A DNA stretch of 64,000 nucleotides, from positions 2,790,001 through 2,854,000 of the forward strand of contig NZ_AFRZ01000001.1 in NCBI RefSeq assembly GCF_000242915.1, in the 5' to 3' direction. The DNA comes from Sulfurimonas gotlandica GD1 (GTDB taxonomy: Bacteria > Campylobacterota > Campylobacteria > Campylobacterales > Sulfurimonadaceae). Below the pieces are notes generated by a model, which was not told the DNA's origin, did no database searches, and was given only the letters and a program-made list of their open reading frames with translations. Position numbers and translations under genes: made by a program. Positions 24,818 to 35,537 of this stretch are shown here, in pieces (within the stretch, counting starts at the first letter, position 1; every line of letters starts with the position of its first letter).

Positions 24818-25318
24818 ATGCAGACAACAAGTCATAAACCTACTCTCTACCTGTTTACAGATGCAAGTGTAAATCCTCAAGCAAAAATTGGCTTTGGGGC
24901 ATACATACTTCTAGACGAAGAGAAAATTTCTTCTGCAATGTTCTCTAAAGATGATGTAAAGAGTAGAAAATTTGAAAATACAAGCTCAACAAAACTCGAG
25001 CTTGAAACTTTACTTTGGGCTTTAAATGACATTCCCTTGCAAAACAATAAGATTATTATATTTACAGATTGTCAAAATATCATAGGCTTAAATGACAGAC
25101 GAGAGAGATTTGAGAAAAATAACTATCTGACTAGTAAAAACAAACTGATAAAGAATCATGAACTATATAAAGAGTTTTTTAAAATTACAGACACTGCTGA
25201 TTGTGACCTTATAAAAGTCAAAGGTCACAAAAAGCATAAAGATAAAGACATGATAGACAATATTTTCACTCTAGTCGATAAAGCTTCTAGAGATGCTCTT
25301 CGTGAAGCAGTTTTATAA
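24818..25318 (+). CDS. RNase H-like protein
   Basis: A 166-residue protein with an RNase HI fold. The first catalytic Asp is in YLFTDASVNP (Asp15), the helix Glu lies in TKLELETLLWAL, the second Asp is in IIFTDCQNI, and the last is Asp152 in LVDKASRDA after a basic VKGHKKHK loop. All four acidic residues seem to be present, so activity on RNA in RNA-DNA hybrids is plausible. It starts on the base after the DMT gene's stop. The 3' end overlaps the convergent GGDEF-EAL gene by 32 bases. Confidence 0.82.
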   Translation: MQTTSHKPTLYLFTDASVNPQAKIGFGAYILLDEEKISSAMFSKDDVKSRKFENTSSTKLELETLLWALNDIPLQNNKIIIFTDCQNIIGLNDRRERFEKNNYLTSKNKLIKNHELYKEFFKITDTADCDLIKVKGHKKHKDKDMIDNIFTLVDKASRDALREAVL

Positions 25319-27215
25319 ACTCTTCTTCTGGCATTGGTTTTGCAAAGTAATACCCTTGAATAATCTCACAGCCATGCTCTTTTAAATAGCTGTATTGGTA
25401 TTCATGTTCAACCCCTTCAGCTACAACATCAAGACCTAGACTTTTTCCCATAGCCAAAATAGTATTGAGAAGTATCTCATCATTATTTCCCACTTCAGAT
25501 ATGTCATCAACAAAACTCTTATCTATTTTTAGCGTGTCTATTGGAAACTTCTTAAGATAAGAGAGTGATGAATAGCCAGTTCCGAAATCATCTATATATA
25601 TGGAAACACCAAGATTTTTTATCTCTTGTAAGGTTGTGAGAGTTTTCTTAATATGCTGCATCATTATACTCTCTGTTATCTCTATACCAAGTTGTTTTGG
25701 GTCAACATCATTCTTTGATAATTCTTCTTTTAGGTCTTGATAGAGGTCTGTATTTTGAAACTGTCTTGTTGATATGTTAATCGAGACTTTTAAACCATTA
25801 TAGCCTAAATCACTAAATCGTCTAATAGCCAGACTGCTCTCTTGTATAACAAACTTACCAAGACTCAACATAAAACCTGTACTCTCTGAAATAGGGATAA
25901 AAACATCTGGTCCTATAAGCCCTTTTTCATGATGAATCCATCTAAGCAATGCTTCTGCGCCAACAATTTTTTTACTCTTAGCATCTACTTTTGGTTGATA
26001 GTAGAGTTTAAACTCATTATCATAAAATGCTCTTTGCATATCATTTATTATGTCAACTTCATTATGTATCTTGGTATTTAAAGACTGCGTAAAAAAGCTA
26101 AAGTTATCTCGTCCATCTGCTTTAGCATTGTACATAGCTATATCTGCATACTTCATAAGCTCTCGAATACTTGATGAATCATCTGGAAAGATTGAAATCC
26201 CTATACTTGCAGAAAGCCTTAAAGAGTAACCTTTGATAAGCAACTCTTTTCTAAACTCTCTAAGCAGGTTAGTAATTATTGGCAACAGCTCATCATCACT
26301 GTCAAAATCTGAGATCACAATAATAAACTCATCTCCACCTATTCTTGTAATCAAATCATTCTTGTTGACACCATTTCTTAGAATATTTGCCACAGTCTGC
26401 AAAAGGGCATCTCCAATGTCATGTCCAAGCGTGTCGTTAATATTTTTAAAATGATCTAAATCTAAGAAAATAATCGCAAATTTTTTAGAGTTCTCATCAG
26501 CATAATGCTTTACTTTTTCTATCTGCTCATTTAAGTAGAGTCTGTTTGGAAGACCGGTCAAAGAATCATGAAGTGAAGTGTGTTTTAGCTCTTTATTTAA
26601 CTCAAACACTTTGTTTCTCGCAATATTCAGGTCAATATTATGTTCTCTTTGAAGTCTTATAAGATAGCCCAAAACTAAGAATTCACTCACAACAAAGATT
26701 GCATGCAATAAAACAATATCAAAGCCACAACCATAGTTAAAAACCATTACAGGCATATCAAAGAGAGAAACCTCATATAGCTGAAGATAATTAAACACAA
26801 TATGGTGTATGGTAGTCGTTAAAGCTGCAGCCAATAGAGGAAAAATATCCTTATACAGTGTTAGTATAGCCATAGTTATAAATACATGAAAGTGCATCTC
26901 TATTCGACCTAAATACTGCTGAATAAAAATAACTGAAAAGAGCATTAGTGCTATAGCTATAAAATATCTATAAAAATTATCACCCTTTAAAAATGGATAT
27001 AAAATAAGAATAGGAATAACAATTAAAGCCCCGCCAAAAAATCCATAATAATAAGTATCATAAAGTATTGAGGTAATAAATGTAGCAATAAACCACTGGA
27101 GAACAAGTAATCCAATCATCACCTTATCTGCTTGTATATTTAGCAGTTTAAAACTACCCTTTGCAAAAAACGGTATTCTCGGATATGTAAATATGTAATT
27201 CATTACTGTGTTCAT
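25287..27215 (-). CDS. Membrane GGDEF-EAL protein (cyclic-di-GMP turnover) with His-rich sensor domain
   Basis: A 642-residue inner-membrane protein. About six hydrophobic helices (about residues 30-190) form an unnamed sensor domain with notable histidines (EMHFHVF and TTIHHIVFNYLQ). A short coiled linker leads to a GGDEF domain with intact GGDEF at 293-297 (RIGGDEF), and then an EAL domain with EAL at 421-423 (GAEALLRW) and IDDFGTGYSSLSYL. Both catalytic centres look intact, so it may make and break c-di-GMP. Its start overlaps the end of the Sco-like gene by 4 bases (ATGA), implying coupled synthesis. The gene end overlaps the RNase H-like gene. Confidence 0.93.
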   Translation of the reverse strand: MNTVMNYIFTYPRIPFFAKGSFKLLNIQADKVMIGLLVLQWFIATFITSILYDTYYYGFFGGALIVIPILILYPFLKGDNFYRYFIAIALMLFSVIFIQQYLGRIEMHFHVFITMAILTLYKDIFPLLAAALTTTIHHIVFNYLQLYEVSLFDMPVMVFNYGCGFDIVLLHAIFVVSEFLVLGYLIRLQREHNIDLNIARNKVFELNKELKHTSLHDSLTGLPNRLYLNEQIEKVKHYADENSKKFAIIFLDLDHFKNINDTLGHDIGDALLQTVANILRNGVNKNDLITRIGGDEFIIVISDFDSDDELLPIITNLLREFRKELLIKGYSLRLSASIGISIFPDDSSSIRELMKYADIAMYNAKADGRDNFSFFTQSLNTKIHNEVDIINDMQRAFYDNEFKLYYQPKVDAKSKKIVGAEALLRWIHHEKGLIGPDVFIPISESTGFMLSLGKFVIQESSLAIRRFSDLGYNGLKVSINISTRQFQNTDLYQDLKEELSKNDVDPKQLGIEITESIMMQHIKKTLTTLQEIKNLGVSIYIDDFGTGYSSLSYLKKFPIDTLKIDKSFVDDISEVGNNDEILLNTILAMGKSLGLDVVAEGVEHEYQYSYLKEHGCEIIQGYYFAKPMPEEEFIKLLHEEHL

Positions 27216-27805
27216 TTTAAATCCTCGGTTTTTCTTACTTTTAATTGTTTTATATCTTCAGTGATTTTTTCCTTGTTAAATGGATGCACGGAGTAGATAT
27301 TTTTCAGGACTTGTCTATTCGAAGCGTTTTCTATCAAATATAGAAAATCAGTGTGATCTAGTTCTGTCTTATCCGAGAGGCTTCTTGAGAAAAAAAGTCC
27401 GAAAGTCCTATCTATACTCAGTGTCTCTTTTCTTGATAGATATACACCTTTAAAGTCCTTGTTAAAAACTTTTGCAAAATTATCAGGTTGATGCTTTTCT
27501 ACTTCAGGTGTAAGATTTACAAACATCACTTCCACATCTTCTTTAACTGCTTCAAACTCTTTAGACTCATGCATAGTATTTAATTTTTCCAACAAAGGAG
27601 TACATACGTCTACACATCCAACATAACCAAAAAAAAGTAAGATAAATTTTCTGTCACTTTTTACATAGCTGGCTTCTAGCTCTTTATTTATTTCAATTTT
27701 GCCTTTAGTATTTGAGACAAAGATAAAAGATTGTATAAACGGAACCATCAAAAAGAAGATTGAGAGCAGAACAATCGTAACTATTTTATATTTTTTATTT
27801 TTCAA
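27212..27805 (-). CDS. Sco1/SenC-like membrane-anchored thioredoxin-fold protein
   Basis: A 197-residue protein with an N-terminal membrane anchor (about residues 8-28) and a periplasmic thioredoxin-like domain. The two cysteines of Sco proteins are present in FGYVGCVDVCTPLL, and the copper-ligand histidine in LDHTDFLYLI. The classic Sco motif is CxxxC, as here. Sco proteins carry copper to cytochrome oxidase CuA or act as thiol reductases. No oxidase genes are near; instead it is translationally coupled to a GGDEF-EAL protein. Confidence 0.82.
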   Translation of the reverse strand: MKNKKYKIVTIVLLSIFFLMVPFIQSFIFVSNTKGKIEINKELEASYVKSDRKFILLFFGYVGCVDVCTPLLEKLNTMHESKEFEAVKEDVEVMFVNLTPEVEKHQPDNFAKVFNKDFKGVYLSRKETLSIDRTFGLFFSRSLSDKTELDHTDFLYLIENASNRQVLKNIYSVHPFNKEKITEDIKQLKVRKTEDLK

Positions 27806-27914
27806 TTTTTACTATTCCAATTATTAAAGACGTGAATGATTAATATACTCAGTATAAACTTTATGTGCAACATTCAAGTAGCTTTATTTGACGTAATAAA
27901 TCTATGCTTAAATG

Positions 27915-29298
27915 TTATAGATTTTTTAGATTTTTTACTTGCACGCACTCATCAAAAAGTTTTTTATCATTTGAGTGTATAAAATATGTTAGAACATTGG
28001 GATCATCTTTATATATATCACTCTCAACCAACAAAATTAGCTAGTAACTCTTTTGAAACAAATAGTTTTTCTTTATCAGTTTCAAGTCTCCAATACGCCA
28101 AATCAAAAAGAGGGGAGAGATGTTTATTGATAAACTGATCTTTTGCATATAGTTTTGATTTTAGATATTCCAGTTTTGATATTTTCTTAGCTTGGTGTTT
28201 ATACTTTTTTTTCTCAATTGCGTACATTGTGACAACTCCAAAGAACAAAACTATGAAAACAATTGTAAAGATATTTAAAAACATCGACTTTTCACCTTCA
28301 ATGGAATTATCATTATCAATCAAAGTGGAATTTCTTGCGATATACTCCGATAGTATAACTCTTGAGTTACTTAACTCTTTTAAATTAAAAAAATACTCAT
28401 TAGAATCTTTATCTATAGATTCTAAACCTTCTAAAGAACCTTTTTCCAAATATTGTAAAACTAATTTTGCTGCCCCGCCACCTTGCGAAGAACCACTTGT
28501 AACATAACCACCAACAACACCATCATACATATATGAGTCTTCCATGCTCAGTATGATTAAGTTTTTATTTTCTCTAATAATATCAATAGACTCTCTTGGT
28601 AAAAGTGTAATATTTTTACTATCTTTAAAATTTCCTATTGTTGTTAAAATAACAAAACTTCTCGGCTTAGTCGGAAGTTGACTTTTAATTTTAGAAATAT
28701 ACTCATCGCTTAAATAATGAAAATTAATATTAGCAAATTCACTTTGCTTAGATTCAAGTTCTTTTTTTATAGAAGCATAAGTATTTGAGTTGTCTCCTAT
28801 AAAATATATATCTCTGGTTTGCGGAGAAAACTGTTTTATCAGCGCTATATTTGGTTCTATATCTTTTAATTCATAAATCCCTACAAATACATCTTTTGGC
28901 AAGATTTTTTGCATATCTAAATTATTTACTCCAGAAAAGAATATTGGTATTTGCTTATGAAATATTTTTTTATAATTAGAAAAAATAAAATTAAGGGCAT
29001 TATCATCCGTAACGTATATCAAATCTGGATTTATTTCAGCATACTTCATCTTTAAATACTCAAGAAAATACTCTTGATACTCATCTGTAAATTTTAATCT
29101 TTTTGTATCTAAATATTCGCTCGAAAATTCAAATTTTTCAGTAGAGTTATTTAGAGTTTCTACAAATGAATTGTGCTGTTTTTTCGTCCAAGCATATTCT
29201 TGTGAATATGAATGTAAAATAAATACAGAAGTTTTATCTGACGCGTATAAAGAGAGTGTAAAACTAATAACTAGTAATAATTTTTTAAAAGAATCCAA
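27915..29298 (-). pseudogene. Truncated, frameshifted periplasmic-binding sensor protein (ABC_sub_bind + TM + partial PAS)
   Basis: The intact frame (28024-29298, 424 residues) has a signal peptide, a periplasmic ABC-substrate-binding-like domain (about 20-310, with IPIFFSGVNN), one membrane helix (about 343-363) and the first part of a PAS-like domain (LAYWRLETDKEKLFVSKELL). It stops at a TGA after ELLANFVG. If one G is skipped there, reading continues for 37 codons to 27915 (DIYKDDPNVLTYFIHSNDKK), which looks like the next part of the same PAS fold, and then ends. So the gene seems both frameshifted and cut short; a GGDEF or kinase output domain is expected in such sensors but is absent. 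The shortened protein might still be made. Confidence 0.65.
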
Positions 29299-29446: not shown

Positions 29447-30154
29447 ATGAAAAAGTTAATAGTGGGGATAATTTTATTATGCAGTATAAATCTATATGCT
29501 GACTTTGCTGCGGGCATCTATGAATACAATGAAAAAAACTATGAAGATGCAATGGTTCTCTGGGATGAAGCTTGTAATGCCGGTGATATAAAATCTTGTC
29601 ATAACTTAGGTCTAATGCTATATAGCGGTAAAAATGTAAAGCAGGATTATCAAAAAGCTATGAAATCATTCTCTAAGTCTTGTAAAAAAGGCGTTGACAG
29701 CAGCTGCTACAATATAGCCATAATGTATTTACGTGGTTATGGGGTTAAACAAGATTATAAACTTGGGATAGATTTCTATGATAAAGCTTGTAATGCTGGA
29801 AATTCTGAATCTTGCTACAACCTTGGAAATATATATAAAGATGGACAGGTGGTAACCCAAAATTTCCAAAAGTCAAAAGAATATTTCATAAAATCATGTA
29901 CAACTGACAATATGTCTGCATGTTATGAGCTTGGTAATATGTACGTTAAGGGTCAAAAAGAGTATATTCAAGCTAAAGAAATGTTCCAAAAAGCTTGTGA
30001 TGGAGGACTAAACTATGGTTGCTATAATCTAGGCGTATTATACCTAGAAGGAAATGGGGTAAAACAAAATAAAATAAAAGCTAAACAGCTGTTTAAAAAA
30101 GCTTGTGATGGCAGAATTTCAACAGCATGTAAAAACTATAAAGAACTAAAATAA
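29447..30154 (+). CDS. Hcp-like secreted Sel1-repeat protein
   Basis: A 235-residue secreted protein with a signal peptide (MKKLIVGIILLCSINLYA) and six Sel1-like helical repeats. Each repeat carries a cysteine pair spaced as in Helicobacter cysteine-rich proteins (KACNAGNSESCYNLGNIY). These pairs form disulfides that staple the helices in periplasmic or secreted Hcp proteins. Some Hcp members bind penicillin weakly, but the physiological role is not known. It stands alone with its own promoter and a GAGGAG ribosome binding site. Confidence 0.9.
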   Translation: MKKLIVGIILLCSINLYADFAAGIYEYNEKNYEDAMVLWDEACNAGDIKSCHNLGLMLYSGKNVKQDYQKAMKSFSKSCKKGVDSSCYNIAIMYLRGYGVKQDYKLGIDFYDKACNAGNSESCYNLGNIYKDGQVVTQNFQKSKEYFIKSCTTDNMSACYELGNMYVKGQKEYIQAKEMFQKACDGGLNYGCYNLGVLYLEGNGVKQNKIKAKQLFKKACDGRISTACKNYKELK

Positions 30155-30305: not shown

Positions 30306-30893
30306 TTGAATTTCACATTTTTAGAAGTTAAAGATAGCAACTTATTAGAAGATGTATTTAAGTTCAGATACAAAATTCTTTTAGAAATATATCCTGAGTA
30401 TTTACAAAATCTAAATTTAAGTGAAGAAAAAGAGTATGATAAGTATGACCCGTATTCAGTTCATTTTGCTGTTTTAGATGAAAATTATGAAATTTGTGCA
30501 ACTGTTAGATTAATACATAGTTCTCCGCTTGGATACCCTACTGAAAACTATATGAAAACAGATAGTGATTCTTTCCAAAGAGACAAACTTGGCGAGATGT
30601 CAAGAATATTTATAGATTCTAAATATAGAAAATTAAAAACAACCAAATGTATAATACACGGTCTTATCAAATTGATTTATATAAAAATGATCCAATTGGA
30701 TATTGAGTATACCTATGGCTCACTAGAATCAAACTTTTTAAGACTACTAAAAATTTATAAATTGAATTACGTCACAATTGGCGAAGAACAGAAGCATAAA
30801 TATTTTGGTCTGCGTCATCCATGTATTCTATATACAAAACAGCTTGTTGCTGATAATCCCGAACTTGATAAAACGATAGGAGAACCGTCATAA
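30306..30893 (+). CDS. Autoinducer-synthase-like N-acyltransferase (GNAT fold; PEP-CTERM/exosortase-associated type)
   Basis: A 195-residue cytoplasmic enzyme resembling LuxI-type acyl-homoserine-lactone synthases and the related exosortase-associated acyltransferases. Matching features are the N-terminal VFKFRYKILLEIY (the RYxV-like segment), the acidic EEKEYDKYDPYSVHFAVLD stretch, ATVRLI, and GEMSRIFIDSKYR (the E-x-SRF-like motif). It should join an acyl chain to an amine, but acyl donor and acceptor are unknown. No exosortase or PEP-CTERM genes are visible. The start is TTG 30306 with AAGGGG upstream. Its stop overlaps the apparent AUA start of the TonB-dependent receptor (ATAA), so the two are coupled. 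Confidence 0.7.
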   Translation: MNFTFLEVKDSNLLEDVFKFRYKILLEIYPEYLQNLNLSEEKEYDKYDPYSVHFAVLDENYEICATVRLIHSSPLGYPTENYMKTDSDSFQRDKLGEMSRIFIDSKYRKLKTTKCIIHGLIKLIYIKMIQLDIEYTYGSLESNFLRLLKIYKLNYVTIGEEQKHKYFGLRHPCILYTKQLVADNPELDKTIGEPS

Positions 30894-32965
30894 AAAATAC
30901 TATTTTAAATAAGCTGCCTAAAATTAGCTTTCTTTTGTTCCCTCTGATTAGCTTAACTAGCTTAAATGCTCAAACAGACGCTTTGCTTGATTCTATCTCC
31001 AGTGAAATGGCACATTATAGTAAAGTTGCAACTGCTACTAAACAAAATGAGCATTACCAGCCATACATAATCTCCGTATTTAAAGGTAAAGAGTTAGAAA
31101 AGTTAGGAGTATCTAACTTAAGAGAAGCTCTTGCTTTAGTTCCTGGCGTAGATATGGCTACAGATAACTTTAACAATCAAACACCTGTCTTTAGGGGATC
31201 AAATCCACTTGCATATGGGCAGTCAAAACTTTTTATTGATGATGTACTGGTAAATAGTGTATTTTTTGATGCTTATTTTGAATATCTATCATTTCCTATA
31301 GAGATGATCAAGCGTATCGAAGTCACAAGAGGACCTGGAAGTAAAACTGATGGTGTAAATGCGTATGCAGGTTCTATTCATGTTGTAACATATGCTGAAG
31401 ACTTTAAAGACTTTGAAAACAATGATAAGCTAGTTTTCAAGTATGGTTCATATGACTATATGATGGGCGGATTTGTGAAAAACTTCAAAAGTGAAGACTT
31501 AAAAGTCTTTACAGACTTTTACTATCAGCAGGATGATAAAAAACTGTATGCCGGTCCTGATGGTCTATCACAAGGAGCCCTCGGTGCTGTTAATATACCA
31601 AGATCACAAACAGGGGATGCCCCTGTTTGGTTAAAAGAGTATTCACTAGGTCTTAATATACAATATAAAGATTTTTCTATTAAAGCCAGACTACATGAAC
31701 ATACTCAGGGAAGCGCGTATGGAGTCAACCTATCTTTACCACAACATGATGACAGAGTAAAACTTCCAAACTACTACCTTGAACTTGGATATAACAAAGA
31801 GATAAAAGACTATGCTGTTGATATAAAAGCAGGTATCAAATATAACGCTTTTGACTCTAAAGCTAAACTGGCTCCTGACAATACAATACTATCTGGACCA
31901 ACTCTGTTTTCTCAAGGTGTATATAGTGAACACTTTGCAGGACAAAGAGAATTATACCAATCATCTTATCTAAAGTATAAAGGTTTAAGTAAGCATCTTA
32001 TATCTGCCGGTTATCGATTTACAAACGATGAGACTATAGATATGTCTTCAAAACTATCAAATAGAACAACTGGTGACCCTGCCCTTTTTGACTATACTGA
32101 TACATTACCATTTTTCGATAAAAATGCAAAGCGCAATACTATTATTGTATCTTTGCAAGATGAATTTCAATATAGTAATAGTCTAAGCTTTATCTATGGC
32201 TTCAACTATGAAGAGAACACATATAAAACTGCAGGTTTAGAGCCTAGAGTTTCGATGGTATATCAACACAACAGTAATAATATATTTAAAGCAATATATA
32301 GCCGTTCACACAGAGATGCTTCATGGCAAGAGATGTATACCATGAACAATTTGGCAAGAGTTGGTAATAAAAATTTAGATCCTGAGAAAGTAGATGCTTT
32401 TGAGTTGGCTTACATCAAAAAACTATCTACTGATTCATATTTACAAAGTAATGCATTCTACCTTATAAATAAAGATCAGATATATAACACTGCGTCCGAC
32501 CCAACATATAGAAATGTTGTTGATACAGATATTTATGGTTTTGAACTTGAGTATAAAGGTAATCTCTCATCATCAGACCAAGTATATATCAACTACTCTT
32601 ATGTTAGTGGAACTTCTTATATAAAAGATGAAGATAAAAGCAGCTCTCTTCCTAATGTAGCTAATCACTTAGCTAAGGGCTACTACATATATAACTTTAC
32701 TAGTTCCCTGTCCTTAAGCGGTATTGCTAAATATGTTGGCGCAAAGGAAAGGGTCGATGGTGATACGCGTGACAAAGTAGAAGCATACTCTACACTCGAT
32801 TCAGCTCTTAGTTATAGAAATAAAAAGTATGATTATACTCTAGCTCTTAGTTTAAAAAACATATTTGATGCTACAGTTAAATTCCCGTCTCCACCAAAGA
32901 CATACTCAGAAGATTATGAGCAAGAAGGCAGAAACTTTTTAATCGCTCTAACAAAGAAGTTTTAG
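30890..32965 (+). CDS. TonB-dependent outer membrane receptor, apparent AUA start
   Basis: A beta-barrel receptor of about 691 residues with a plug domain (LEKLGVSNLREALALVPGVD, then IKRIEVTRGPGSKTDGVNAY). It imports or senses a scarce ligand using TonB energy, and the barrel ends in FLIALTKKF. Starting at TTG 30935 would leave only half of the signal peptide. Reading from AUA 30890 gives KNTILNKLPKISFLLFPLI, a full Sec signal with basic head and hydrophobic core. AUA overlaps the acyltransferase stop (ATAA), with AGGAG 6-7 bases upstream. CTG 30914 is a weaker alternative. The ligand is unknown; the upstream acyltransferase product is a candidate. Confidence 0.85.
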   Translation: MKNTILNKLPKISFLLFPLISLTSLNAQTDALLDSISSEMAHYSKVATATKQNEHYQPYIISVFKGKELEKLGVSNLREALALVPGVDMATDNFNNQTPVFRGSNPLAYGQSKLFIDDVLVNSVFFDAYFEYLSFPIEMIKRIEVTRGPGSKTDGVNAYAGSIHVVTYAEDFKDFENNDKLVFKYGSYDYMMGGFVKNFKSEDLKVFTDFYYQQDDKKLYAGPDGLSQGALGAVNIPRSQTGDAPVWLKEYSLGLNIQYKDFSIKARLHEHTQGSAYGVNLSLPQHDDRVKLPNYYLELGYNKEIKDYAVDIKAGIKYNAFDSKAKLAPDNTILSGPTLFSQGVYSEHFAGQRELYQSSYLKYKGLSKHLISAGYRFTNDETIDMSSKLSNRTTGDPALFDYTDTLPFFDKNAKRNTIIVSLQDEFQYSNSLSFIYGFNYEENTYKTAGLEPRVSMVYQHNSNNIFKAIYSRSHRDASWQEMYTMNNLARVGNKNLDPEKVDAFELAYIKKLSTDSYLQSNAFYLINKDQIYNTASDPTYRNVVDTDIYGFELEYKGNLSSSDQVYINYSYVSGTSYIKDEDKSSSLPNVANHLAKGYYIYNFTSSLSLSGIAKYVGAKERVDGDTRDKVEAYSTLDSALSYRNKKYDYTLALSLKNIFDATVKFPSPPKTYSEDYEQEGRNFLIALTKKF

Positions 32966-33511
32966 ATGAAAAAACTAATCTTCTTATCTTTAATCTTTGT
33001 AAATATGCTTTATGGCTATAGCTATAATGATATTTTACTAAAAGCACAAGCTTCAATTTTTCCAAAAATAATGCTCTTAGATAAAAACATAGAAAACAAA
33101 CTCGTAGATGGAAAAATCGTGTACACAATTGCTTACGATAAGAGTGATATAAGCATAGCTCAAGAAATAAGTAAATTTATAAATAAAAATTTTGATGGAT
33201 ATTTTGACAAATACCTATATCAAATAAATTTAGTTGAGTTTTCTGATTTATCAAGTGATACAAAAGCTTCCGCAATTTACACTCTAAATTCAGATGAGCA
33301 TATAGACAAAGTTGCAAATATAGCGAGGGAAAAAGGTGTCATAGCTTTTTCATACGATATAGAAAATTTAAAAAAAGGACTTCTATTTTCTATGATGCTT
33401 GAAAAATCAACAGTCCTCTATTTAAATAAAGAGGATTTAAATAAAACAAAAATTGACTTTGTTGATTCTCTACTGCAGATGGTTAGATTTATAGATAAAA
33501 ACGATCTCTAA
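32966..33511 (+). CDS. Periplasmic YfiR-like (DUF4154-type) protein
   Basis: A 181-residue secreted protein with a signal peptide (MKKLIFLSLIFVNMLYG). The opening ILLKAQASIFPKIMLLD and the order of predicted strands, including the late FSYDIENLKKGLLFSM segment and the final IDFVDSLLQMVRFID helix, resemble YfiR/DUF4154 proteins. YfiR is a periplasmic inhibitor of the diguanylate cyclase YfiN. It starts directly after the TonB receptor stop and is followed by a membrane GGDEF-EAL protein, the right partners for such a role. The family call rests on weak pattern resemblance and context. Confidence 0.6.
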   Translation: MKKLIFLSLIFVNMLYGYSYNDILLKAQASIFPKIMLLDKNIENKLVDGKIVYTIAYDKSDISIAQEISKFINKNFDGYFDKYLYQINLVEFSDLSSDTKASAIYTLNSDEHIDKVANIAREKGVIAFSYDIENLKKGLLFSMMLEKSTVLYLNKEDLNKTKIDFVDSLLQMVRFIDKNDL

Positions 33512-33534
33512 TTGTCTCCCGATTTTTTAATAAA

Positions 33535-33540
33535 TATGAT
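33535..33540 (+). promoter_or_regulatory. Possible -10 promoter element (TATGAT) upstream of the second GGDEF-EAL gene
   Basis: TATGAT after a T-rich run (GATTTTTTAATAAA) in the 85-base gap between the YfiR-like and GGDEF-EAL genes. If used, transcription would begin at or near the 5' arm of the hairpin at 33546-33590. It suggests that the last gene can be expressed apart from the receptor. Confidence 0.35.
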
Positions 33541-33545
33541 AGAAT

Positions 33546-33590
33546 AGCCTCCACAAAGCATAATTCTATATTTTAGAGAAACTGGAGGTT
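33546..33590 (+). promoter_or_regulatory. Inverted repeat that could hide the ribosome binding site of the GGDEF-EAL gene
   Basis: AGCCTCCA (33546-33553) pairs with TGGAGGTT (33583-33590): eight pairs with one wobble and a 29-base loop. The 3' arm contains the GGAGG ribosome binding site, 8 bases before the ATG at 33597. The mRNA could therefore switch between closed and open forms. Confidence 0.4.
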
Positions 33591-33596
33591 TTTGTC

Positions 33597-35537
33597 ATGA
33601 AAATAAAAAATTTTAAATCTCTCTCCAGTAAAATCGTACTATTAATCATGCTTATTTCACTTCTTAGTGTATTAGTGATTTTCACTGTATTTGAAAGAGT
33701 AAATAAAAAAGCTTTTTACAGTGTAGAAATGGAGAAAGCAGACCTTGTTGCTAGAACTATAGAGCCGCTTATAGCCCTCAATATCTACCTTGATATGAAA
33801 AATAAAACAGATGAAGTAATAACTCAGCTTTTAGAAAATCCAAACATACTTGCTGTCAAGGTTTTAAAAAACAATGAAGTAATAAATGAAATAAAATCAA
33901 ATGAGTATGCGCATAATATTGAAGAGTCTTTTATTATTGAAAAAACTATTAATCAACCAAATTATAAAAAGAAACTTGGTACTTTAGTTATAACTTATTC
34001 AAATAAGAACTACAAAGAACTTACAAATCAATATACTAAAATTTTATTGATAATGTTTATTGCTTTTAGTGTACTCTTTACACTCTTTAGTTTATATGTA
34101 AAAAAACTATTATTACCTCTTAGAAAAATTGCCAAATCATTAAAAACATACTCTCCAGATATGGAGATAGACATCCCATACGTATTTCAAAACAATGAGA
34201 TTGGACTAATATCCAAAGCGTTAAATGATATGCAAAAAAAAATCTCACAATATTCAAAAAAACAAAAAAATATCAACCAATACCTTGAAGACAAAGTCAA
34301 CGAAAAGACTTTAGAACTTCGTAAACAGCTCTATATAGACACTCTTACCGGTTTGCCAAACAGACATAGTCTATTAAATGACATAATAGGTACTAATGAC
34401 GGAGCTCTTATTATTGTAAATATAGATGATTTTAAAGAAATAAATGATTTTTTTGGTCAAATAACCGGTGATGATATTTTAAAAAGTTTTGCTTATAAAT
34501 TAAGTAATATGTTCAACAAAGACCATTACACAACTATTAGCAGACTCTCCGGTGATGAATTTGCTATATTCTTTACAAAAAAACCATTACTTAAAGAATT
34601 TATTGAGATTTCAAAAAAACTAGTAGTCGATGTAGAGAAAATGATTTTTTTATATGAAAATAATGAACTATCCATAAGAGTTACTGCAGGTTGTTCATAT
34701 CAAATAGATAATGTTTTAGAAAAAGCTGATATTGCTCTGAAATCTGCAAAAAAACAGCAAAAATCTTTTTTACTTTATGATGAAAAATTAAATATTGAAG
34801 AGCAATATAAAGATAATATAGAATGGGTTAAAAAGCTAAAGATTGCTATTAAAGACGATAAAATAGTTCCATATTTTCAACCGATTTTTGATAACACATC
34901 AGATAAGATTGCAAGTTACGAATGTTTAATCCGCCTCATTGATGAAGATGATAGGGTTATTGGTCCATATAAATTTTTAACAATTGCCAAAAAGAGCAGA
35001 CTGTATAGTAATTTGACAAAAATCATGATTGAAAAGAGTTGTAAATATTTTGAAAATATTAATTGTGATTTTTCAATAAACTTATCAGTTGAAGATATTT
35101 TAAATAAAGATATTGTTGAATATATCAAACAAAAAATAAAACAACATAATGTTTCTAAAAAAATAATATTTGAAATTCTAGAGTCTGAAGGTATTGAAAA
35201 TTATGAAGATATATCAATATTTACAAATGAGATGAAAACTCTTGGCTGTAGAATTGCAATTGATGATTTTGGCTCGGGATATTCTAACTTTGAGCATCTT
35301 CTTCAATTAAAAATTGATTATATTAAAATAGATGGTACTCTTATAAAAAATATTGATCACGACATTAATTCTCAAATTGTAGTTGAAACTATTGTAAATT
35401 TTGCTCAGAGATTAAATATTTTAACTGTGGCAGAGTTTGTTCACAATGAAGACGTATACAAAAAAATTAAAAGCCTTCAAATTAATCGAACTCAAGGCTT
35501 TTTCTTATCTGAACCATTAGAGAAGATAGATAAATAA
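33597..35537 (+). CDS. Membrane GGDEF-EAL protein with variant motifs (YfiN-like context)
   Basis: A 646-residue inner-membrane protein with two helices (about 12-31 and 146-166) enclosing a periplasmic sensor region, then a HAMP-like linker, GGDEF and EAL domains. The GGDEF signature reads SGDEF at 318-322; some active cyclases tolerate this. The EAL signature reads ECL at 442-444 (SYECLIRL), but the later EILESEG and IDDFGSGYSNFEHLL motifs are kept. Activity of either half is uncertain. Following a TonB receptor and a YfiR-like periplasmic protein, it is the likely output of that set. A hairpin covers its ribosome binding site. Confidence 0.88.
   Translation: MKIKNFKSLSSKIVLLIMLISLLSVLVIFTVFERVNKKAFYSVEMEKADLVARTIEPLIALNIYLDMKNKTDEVITQLLENPNILAVKVLKNNEVINEIKSNEYAHNIEESFIIEKTINQPNYKKKLGTLVITYSNKNYKELTNQYTKILLIMFIAFSVLFTLFSLYVKKLLLPLRKIAKSLKTYSPDMEIDIPYVFQNNEIGLISKALNDMQKKISQYSKKQKNINQYLEDKVNEKTLELRKQLYIDTLTGLPNRHSLLNDIIGTNDGALIIVNIDDFKEINDFFGQITGDDILKSFAYKLSNMFNKDHYTTISRLSGDEFAIFFTKKPLLKEFIEISKKLVVDVEKMIFLYENNELSIRVTAGCSYQIDNVLEKADIALKSAKKQQKSFLLYDEKLNIEEQYKDNIEWVKKLKIAIKDDKIVPYFQPIFDNTSDKIASYECLIRLIDEDDRVIGPYKFLTIAKKSRLYSNLTKIMIEKSCKYFENINCDFSINLSVEDILNKDIVEYIKQKIKQHNVSKKIIFEILESEGIENYEDISIFTNEMKTLGCRIAIDDFGSGYSNFEHLLQLKIDYIKIDGTLIKNIDHDINSQIVVETIVNFAQRLNILTVAEFVHNEDVYKKIKSLQINRTQGFFLSEPLEKIDK

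Follow-up and report, generated by a model that had tools for sequence, protein, structure and literature searches.

A candidate LuxR-free acyl-signal circuit with a c-di-GMP output in a four-gene cassette of Campylobacterota

Four consecutive genes of Sulfurimonas gotlandica GD1 encode an acyltransferase (AT) with the LuxI/FeeM fold, a TonB-dependent receptor, a periplasmic YfiR-like protein, and an inner-membrane GGDEF-EAL protein. We consider that this cassette is best explained as a self-contained, LuxR-free self-signaling (quorum-sensing-like) circuit acting on c-di-GMP, and we put the probability of this reading at roughly 0.6. It is supported by the observed gene content, folds, and catalytic residues, the linkage of the genes as a unit, the repeated loss of the synthase, the matching of enzyme and receptor sub-types, and the absence of LuxR from the sampled genomes. 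That the AT product is the ligand of the receptor is an inference and has not been demonstrated.

Organization of the locus

The genes lie in a stretch of 64,000 nucleotides, referred to here as the window, with the following features.

30306..30893, plus strand: LuxI/FeeM-fold acyltransferase (AT), candidate signal synthase; 195 aa, TTG start, TAA stop
30878..30882, plus strand: Shine-Dalgarno-like AGGAG for the receptor gene, within the AT coding sequence
30890..32965, plus strand: TonB-dependent receptor with plug and barrel, without an N-terminal signaling domain; probable ATA start overlapping the AT stop
32966..33511, plus strand: periplasmic YfiR-like relay protein; 181 aa, ATG start, signal peptide, mature part without cysteine
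33597..35537, plus strand: inner-membrane HAMP-GGDEF-EAL protein, c-di-GMP output; 646 aa

The first-pass annotation described four consecutive plus-strand genes in this order, and the window sequence bears this out; all four reading frames are present and uninterrupted. It also placed the start of the YfiR-like gene at the receptor stop, where the ATG indeed follows the TAG directly. The GGDEF-EAL gene starts 85 bp after the YfiR-like gene. The claimed overlap of the AT and receptor genes (ATAA) agrees with the likely receptor start, ATA 30890, which overlaps the TAA of AT. A full receptor signal peptide is obtained only from ATA 30890 or ATT 30902, the first ATG, GTG, or TTG of the frame (TTG 30935) would truncate it, and the AGGAG sits 7 nt upstream of ATA 30890. 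Judged from the sequence alone, ATA 30890 is probably the start codon. ATA is a rare start codon, and in many relatives the receptor start overlaps the AT stop; both a sequencing error and genuine ATA initiation are possible. The position of the AGGAG inside the AT gene implies that translation of the two genes may be coupled. A promoter scan gave no excess over shuffled sequences (42 vs 38.1); hence, no promoter is claimed.

The Sel1-repeat gene upstream (29447-30154) and ychF downstream were excluded from the cassette because neither is conserved with it. Just upstream of the Sel1 gene, the divergent minus-strand region 25287-29298 encodes a GGDEF-EAL protein, an SCO1-like gene product, and a membrane ABC_sub_bind-like protein, which may form a second sensory c-di-GMP set.

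Conservation of the cassette

Our reading of Campylobacterota gene neighborhoods yielded 50 genomes in which AT is intact. AT adjoins the receptor in 46 of them, including locus L094, in which the GGDEF-EAL gene lies between the two, and all four genes stand in a row in 32. In the genus g14, AT, receptor, and YfiR-like genes are accompanied by a related GGDEF-EAL gene that is adjoining but divergent, on the other strand. The median spacing is −4 nt between AT and receptor and −1 nt between receptor and YfiR-like gene. The flanking genes are unrelated between lineages and mostly housekeeping (trpB/pepA, bamA/tamB, ychF, an RND pump, and others); therefore, the four-gene set behaves as one unit, and a chance neighborhood is ruled out by the 46/50 adjacency with varying flanks. 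The cassette occurs in named records of Sulfurimonas, Nitratiruptor, Hydrogenimonas, and Arcobacteraceae, so that the synteny that the first-pass annotation proposed as a check is conserved across at least four named lineages. The pattern that it said would refute the proposal, an acyltransferase regularly found without the other genes, is absent, since just four of the 50 ATs are not beside a receptor. Two of these four genomes (G046 and G466) keep an AT-less cassette elsewhere; G085 and G267 have AT and no cassette.

The Arcobacteraceae receptors nest inside the Sulfurimonas receptors; therefore, the set has moved between families. A profile scan across 84,980 species recovered 41 loci, labeled as Campylobacterota or only as "bacterium". 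That scan used an AT set closer than all 38 relatives, and its patterns suit close relatives, which leaves room for more distant members in other phyla; our in-depth sampling was confined to Campylobacterota. Pairwise distances are correlated between AT and receptor (rho 0.74) and between receptor and YfiR-like protein (rho 0.89). We do not take these values as proof because shared ancestry alone can yield such correlations.

Loss of the synthase and matching of sub-types

In the receptor tree, cassettes with and without AT are interspersed, with 12 label changes, of which at least 10 are forced by well-supported branches. In L086, L098, and L108, recognizable AT remnants persist upstream of the receptor gene. 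Thus, AT was lost many times while the receptor and the relay stayed.

A distinct enzyme clade, AT2 (support 100), was found in five genomes. It lies inside the cassette in L148 and L155; in G046 and G466, it lies away from the AT-less cassette, beside a methyltransferase gene; the fifth genome, G085, is without a cassette. Among 80 receptors, those of L148, L155, G046, and G466 form, with one AT-less relative, a five-member clade (100/96). The AT2 sub-type thus tracks one receptor sub-clade even when unlinked, which is supportive and not conclusive, as it concerns four genomes with shared ancestry. Together with the repeated loss of AT from cassettes that keep the receptor, this matching supports an enzyme-receptor link beyond gene order.

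These patterns also bear on the main rival explanation, in which an external nutrient or foreign compound is sensed by the receptor, the YfiR-like protein, and the GGDEF-EAL protein, and AT is not the source of the ligand but an output or a companion that, for example, produces a surfactant or an N-acyl amino acid lipid under the same conditions. We judge this to be unlikely, while recognizing that it has real support. The TonB-YfiR front end is a widespread module: in the family sample, a YfiR-like hit was found in 111 of 200 genomes and an AT hit in 45, and pairs without AT occur with other outputs (histidine kinases, GGDEF). Such AT-less pairs are common, and they speak against the self-signaling circuit in that the front end must often read a molecule that the cell does not make. 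AT is also the cassette part most often lost, and the AT genes without a cassette in G085 and G267 point the same way. However, AT leads the operon, overlaps the receptor gene, and keeps its place beside the receptor across the genomes read; its sub-type follows the receptor sub-clade even where the genes are apart; and its fold is that of signal synthases. Gene order and co-inheritance indicate that enzyme and receptor share one process, and they do not prove that AT makes the ligand of the receptor.

TonB-dependent receptor

The receptor contains a plug domain (Pfam, E=2.7e-15) and a barrel of the siderophore-receptor type that matches TonB-siderophor/CirA-like models; its sequence matches in the PDB are CirA and siderophore receptors. 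The Pfam scan found the plug domain alone, with no N-terminal signaling (STN) domain. No match to the receptor was found among plasmids at E<=1e-20.

The resemblance to siderophore receptors counts against the self-signaling circuit, because the ligand could be metal-related. On this basis, the cassette might serve metallophore or nutrient retrieval, in which the AT product is a chelator or carrier of a metal or another nutrient, is taken back up by the receptor, and has its successful retrieval reported by c-di-GMP. Pyoverdine, which is sensed through FpvA, is a self-made, TonB-imported signal and sets a precedent; in the FpvA-FpvR-PvdS system, as proposed for the cassette, a molecule made by the cell is sensed via a TonB-dependent receptor. 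However, FpvA uses an N-terminal signaling domain and an anti-sigma/sigma pair, whereas the receptor described here lacks this domain of FpvA and FecA, and the output is c-di-GMP. Moreover, in the neighborhoods read, the cassette is not consistently accompanied by genes for siderophore synthesis, an ABC importer, or a ferric reductase, and we know of no single acyltransferase that makes a chelator on its own. We therefore rate metallophore retrieval as less probable again than the sensing of an external ligand.

YfiR-like relay and GGDEF-EAL output

The AlphaFold model of the YfiR-like protein (pLDDT 90) superimposes on YfiR (4zhu) with Z 13.9 and rmsd 3.1 over 144 aa, and the YfiR fold anticipated for the 32966 product is thus confirmed at the level of the model. 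Substrate-binding proteins such as 3lkv tie with YfiR as fold matches. The window protein was not matched by Pfam DUF4154 (YfiR/HmsC-like), which recognizes 10 of 53 relatives (best E 6e-6). In the mature part, 64 of 94 relatives have no cysteine, 25 have one, and five have two; the window protein has none.

The output protein contains EAL (E 2.4e-63), GGDEF (9.1e-22), and HAMP (3.2e-4) domains in Pfam and resembles YfiN and LapD, below the NCBIfam cut-off. The EAL catalytic residues (E of ExL, N, E, DD, K, E, Q) are kept across 53 proteins. The GGDEF motif is SGDEF in the window protein and in most relatives, with a few degenerate forms.

Other arrangements of the front end were noted. In L115 (8873-11453), a TonB receptor and YfiR-like pair is followed by a HAMP histidine kinase and a response regulator. 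In L107 (7945-9683, genome G171), a Xre-HipA-like pair occupies the expected GGDEF-EAL position after an AT-less receptor-YfiR pair.

Family, fold, and probable product of the acyltransferase

The window AT matches Pfam Acetyltransf_5 of the GNAT family (38.2 bits vs a cut-off of 22.4) and falls just short of Pfam FeeM (26.9 bits, cut-off 27.0); Pfam Autoind_synth gives no match to it. Among 38 relatives, 25 match Autoind_synth and 27 match FeeM at E<=1e-3, and the L155 enzyme exceeds the Autoind_synth cut-off (38.8 vs 24.0 bits). The top PDB sequence match for a profile of the 38 relatives is the acyl-homoserine lactone (AHL) synthase TofI (E 6.8e-5). In structural comparisons, the AlphaFold model of AT (pLDDT 93) aligned with TofI (Z 19.0, rmsd 2.7, 175 aa), LasI (Z 18.9, rmsd 3.0, 185 aa), and FeeM 2g0b (Z 17.9, rmsd 2.7, 169 aa). 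The nine best matches are all AHL synthases (TofI, LasI, RpaI, BjaI) or FeeM, which match the whole chain and rank ahead of general GNATs. The LuxI-like fold that the first-pass annotation expected of the 30306 product was accordingly recovered, with TofI, LasI, and FeeM as the best matches.

Residues R21, D45, D48, E97, and R100 of AT align without change with those of two AHL synthases annotated beside LuxR-type genes on rhizobial plasmids. This R-D-D-E-R catalytic set (R24, D45, D48, E97, and R100 in LuxI numbering) is also invariant in the 38 relatives. The equivalents of LuxI F28 and W34, the aromatic positions of the SAM pocket, are not kept in the window AT, which has L25 and no Trp there; therefore, we do not class it among the AHL synthases. 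The AT2-type enzymes retain the SAM-pocket Trp. A tblastn search of 72,556 plasmids with an Arcobacter AT variant returned only three records, all annotated as AHL or autoinducer synthases.

A leucine-carboxyl-methyltransferase-family gene (PF04072) lies immediately upstream of AT2-type enzymes in L155 (6178-7065), L170 (6957-7844), and L081 (9396-10283). This pairing suggests, by inference, an AT2-linked product with a free carboxylate, and an N-acyl amino acid methyl ester as the product of the two genes. FeeM-like N-acyl amino acid synthesis is favored over AHL synthesis also because the related enzyme type pairs with the PF04072 protein; the product chemistry of AT itself is inferred. The methyltransferase was rejected as a core part and regarded as accessory, as it adjoins only AT2-type enzymes in three genomes.

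Two further assignments of AT were already disfavored and are very improbable. Association with exosortase/PEP-CTERM is suggested by the nearest NCBIfam model, exosort_acyl TIGR03694 (E 5.5e-20), and by the FeeM matches of most relatives, but the score is 71.8 bits against a cut-off of 111.95, no exosortase was found in the window genome, none of the 11 family genomes (of 121) in which exosortase was found belongs to those with an AT hit in the 200-genome sample, and the linkage of AT to the receptor is not loose. Canonical AHL quorum sensing with a LuxR encoded elsewhere and the cassette as incidental, to which the fold and catalytic residues of AT would lend themselves, is opposed by the unconserved SAM-pocket aromatics and by the absence of the autoinducer-binding domain (Autoind_bind, PF03472) from all 121 family genomes, the window genome and 120 relatives; a LuxR partner was rejected on the basis of this sample.

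In another family of the order, a distant FeeM-like acyltransferase (~252 aa) is encoded between 7TMR-DISM histidine kinases and response regulators (L173, 5475-10169; L174, 4961-9059; similarly in L175-L179). This arrangement is possibly a second acyl-signal circuit with a different type of receptor.

Proposed circuit

In the self-signaling reading, the LuxI/FeeM-fold enzyme would acylate an amino-acid-like amine with a fatty acyl chain, the donor probably being acyl-ACP, and yield an N-acyl amino acid (favored) or an AHL. The amphiphilic product may leave the cell by diffusion or through a general pump, a step that is inferred. It would be captured outside by the TonB-dependent receptor and brought into the periplasm, if the identity of the ligand is inferred correctly. 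The YfiR-like protein, with its YfiR/substrate-binding-protein fold, might then bind the ligand or the ligand-loaded receptor and change how it holds the periplasmic part of the GGDEF-EAL protein; this binding is likewise inferred from the fold. The GGDEF-EAL protein would shift c-di-GMP, in a direction that can only be inferred, and presumably alter attachment or motility according to population density or signal retention.

In Hydrogenimonas, the cassette is directly preceded by an RND-type efflux gene (1036 aa; L149, 5817-8927; L167 and L168, upstream of AT), which possibly encodes an exporter of the AT product. It was rejected as a general cassette part because it precedes AT in Hydrogenimonas only.

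Comparison with known systems

The cassette resembles the LuxI/LuxR systems (TofI, LasI, BjaI) in the whole-chain fold and R-D-D-E-R set of the synthase and in the presumed small acylated product. The repeated loss of the synthase with retention of the receptor is reminiscent of LuxR solos. Unlike these systems, the cassette is without LuxR, and a TonB-dependent receptor, a periplasmic relay, and c-di-GMP replace the cytoplasmic transcription factor. FeeM and the PEP-CTERM/exosortase N-acyl amino acid synthases share the fold, HMM similarity, and probably the product class with AT. A link of N-acyl amino acid synthases to PEP-CTERM/exosortase is reported (Craig 2011, cited in PMC7293339). In contrast, AT scores below the exosort_acyl cut-off in a genome without exosortase, and its stable partner is the TonB-YfiR-GGDEF/EAL set.

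A precedent for the relay parts is YfiBNR of P. aeruginosa (PMC4655355), in which a periplasmic YfiR-fold protein also stands between an outer-membrane protein and an inner-membrane HAMP-GGDEF protein. The cassette differs in having a TonB-dependent receptor in place of the lipoprotein YfiB, an EAL domain in the output protein, and a synthase in the operon; the cysteines and disulfides of P. aeruginosa YfiR are missing from the window relay. Periplasmic control of a c-di-GMP enzyme has a precedent in NspS-MbaA of V. cholerae (PMC8967002), where a periplasmic ligand-binding protein responds to an extracellular small molecule and thereby steers a bifunctional membrane enzyme of c-di-GMP turnover. 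The periplasmic protein of the cassette differs in its YfiR fold. The ligands of NspS-MbaA are polyamines, and a dedicated synthase plus TonB-dependent receptor is not known among its operon partners.

No published description of the cassette, and no paper combining these families, was found in the papers available to us; subscription literature was outside the search. There is a fair chance that the cassette is a new architecture, and we know of no earlier case in which a LuxI-type synthase is paired with TonB-dependent active uptake and a direct c-di-GMP output.

Implications

Acyl-signal communication in Campylobacterota has so far been without a clear receptor, and LuxR domains are missing from the searched genomes. 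In bacteria of vents and sulfidic waters, one operon now offers candidates for synthase, receptor, relay, and output, and many sulfur-oxidizing and related bacteria appear to carry the traveling four-gene set. A wider proposal, to which we give somewhat less than even odds, is that Campylobacterota have their own acyl-signal quorum-sensing class, in which a LuxI/FeeM synthase works in stable association with a dedicated TonB-dependent importer, a YfiR-fold periplasmic reader, and c-di-GMP writing without LuxR, the whole set moves between families together, and synthase-less lineages are listeners. Such lineages provide natural listeners for comparison, and the cassette leads to a testable prediction on the decision between attachment and swimming. 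If the reading is correct, these bacteria would make a fatty-acid-based signal, re-import it through a dedicated receptor, and convert it to c-di-GMP, and they would thereby communicate without the usual LuxR receptors.
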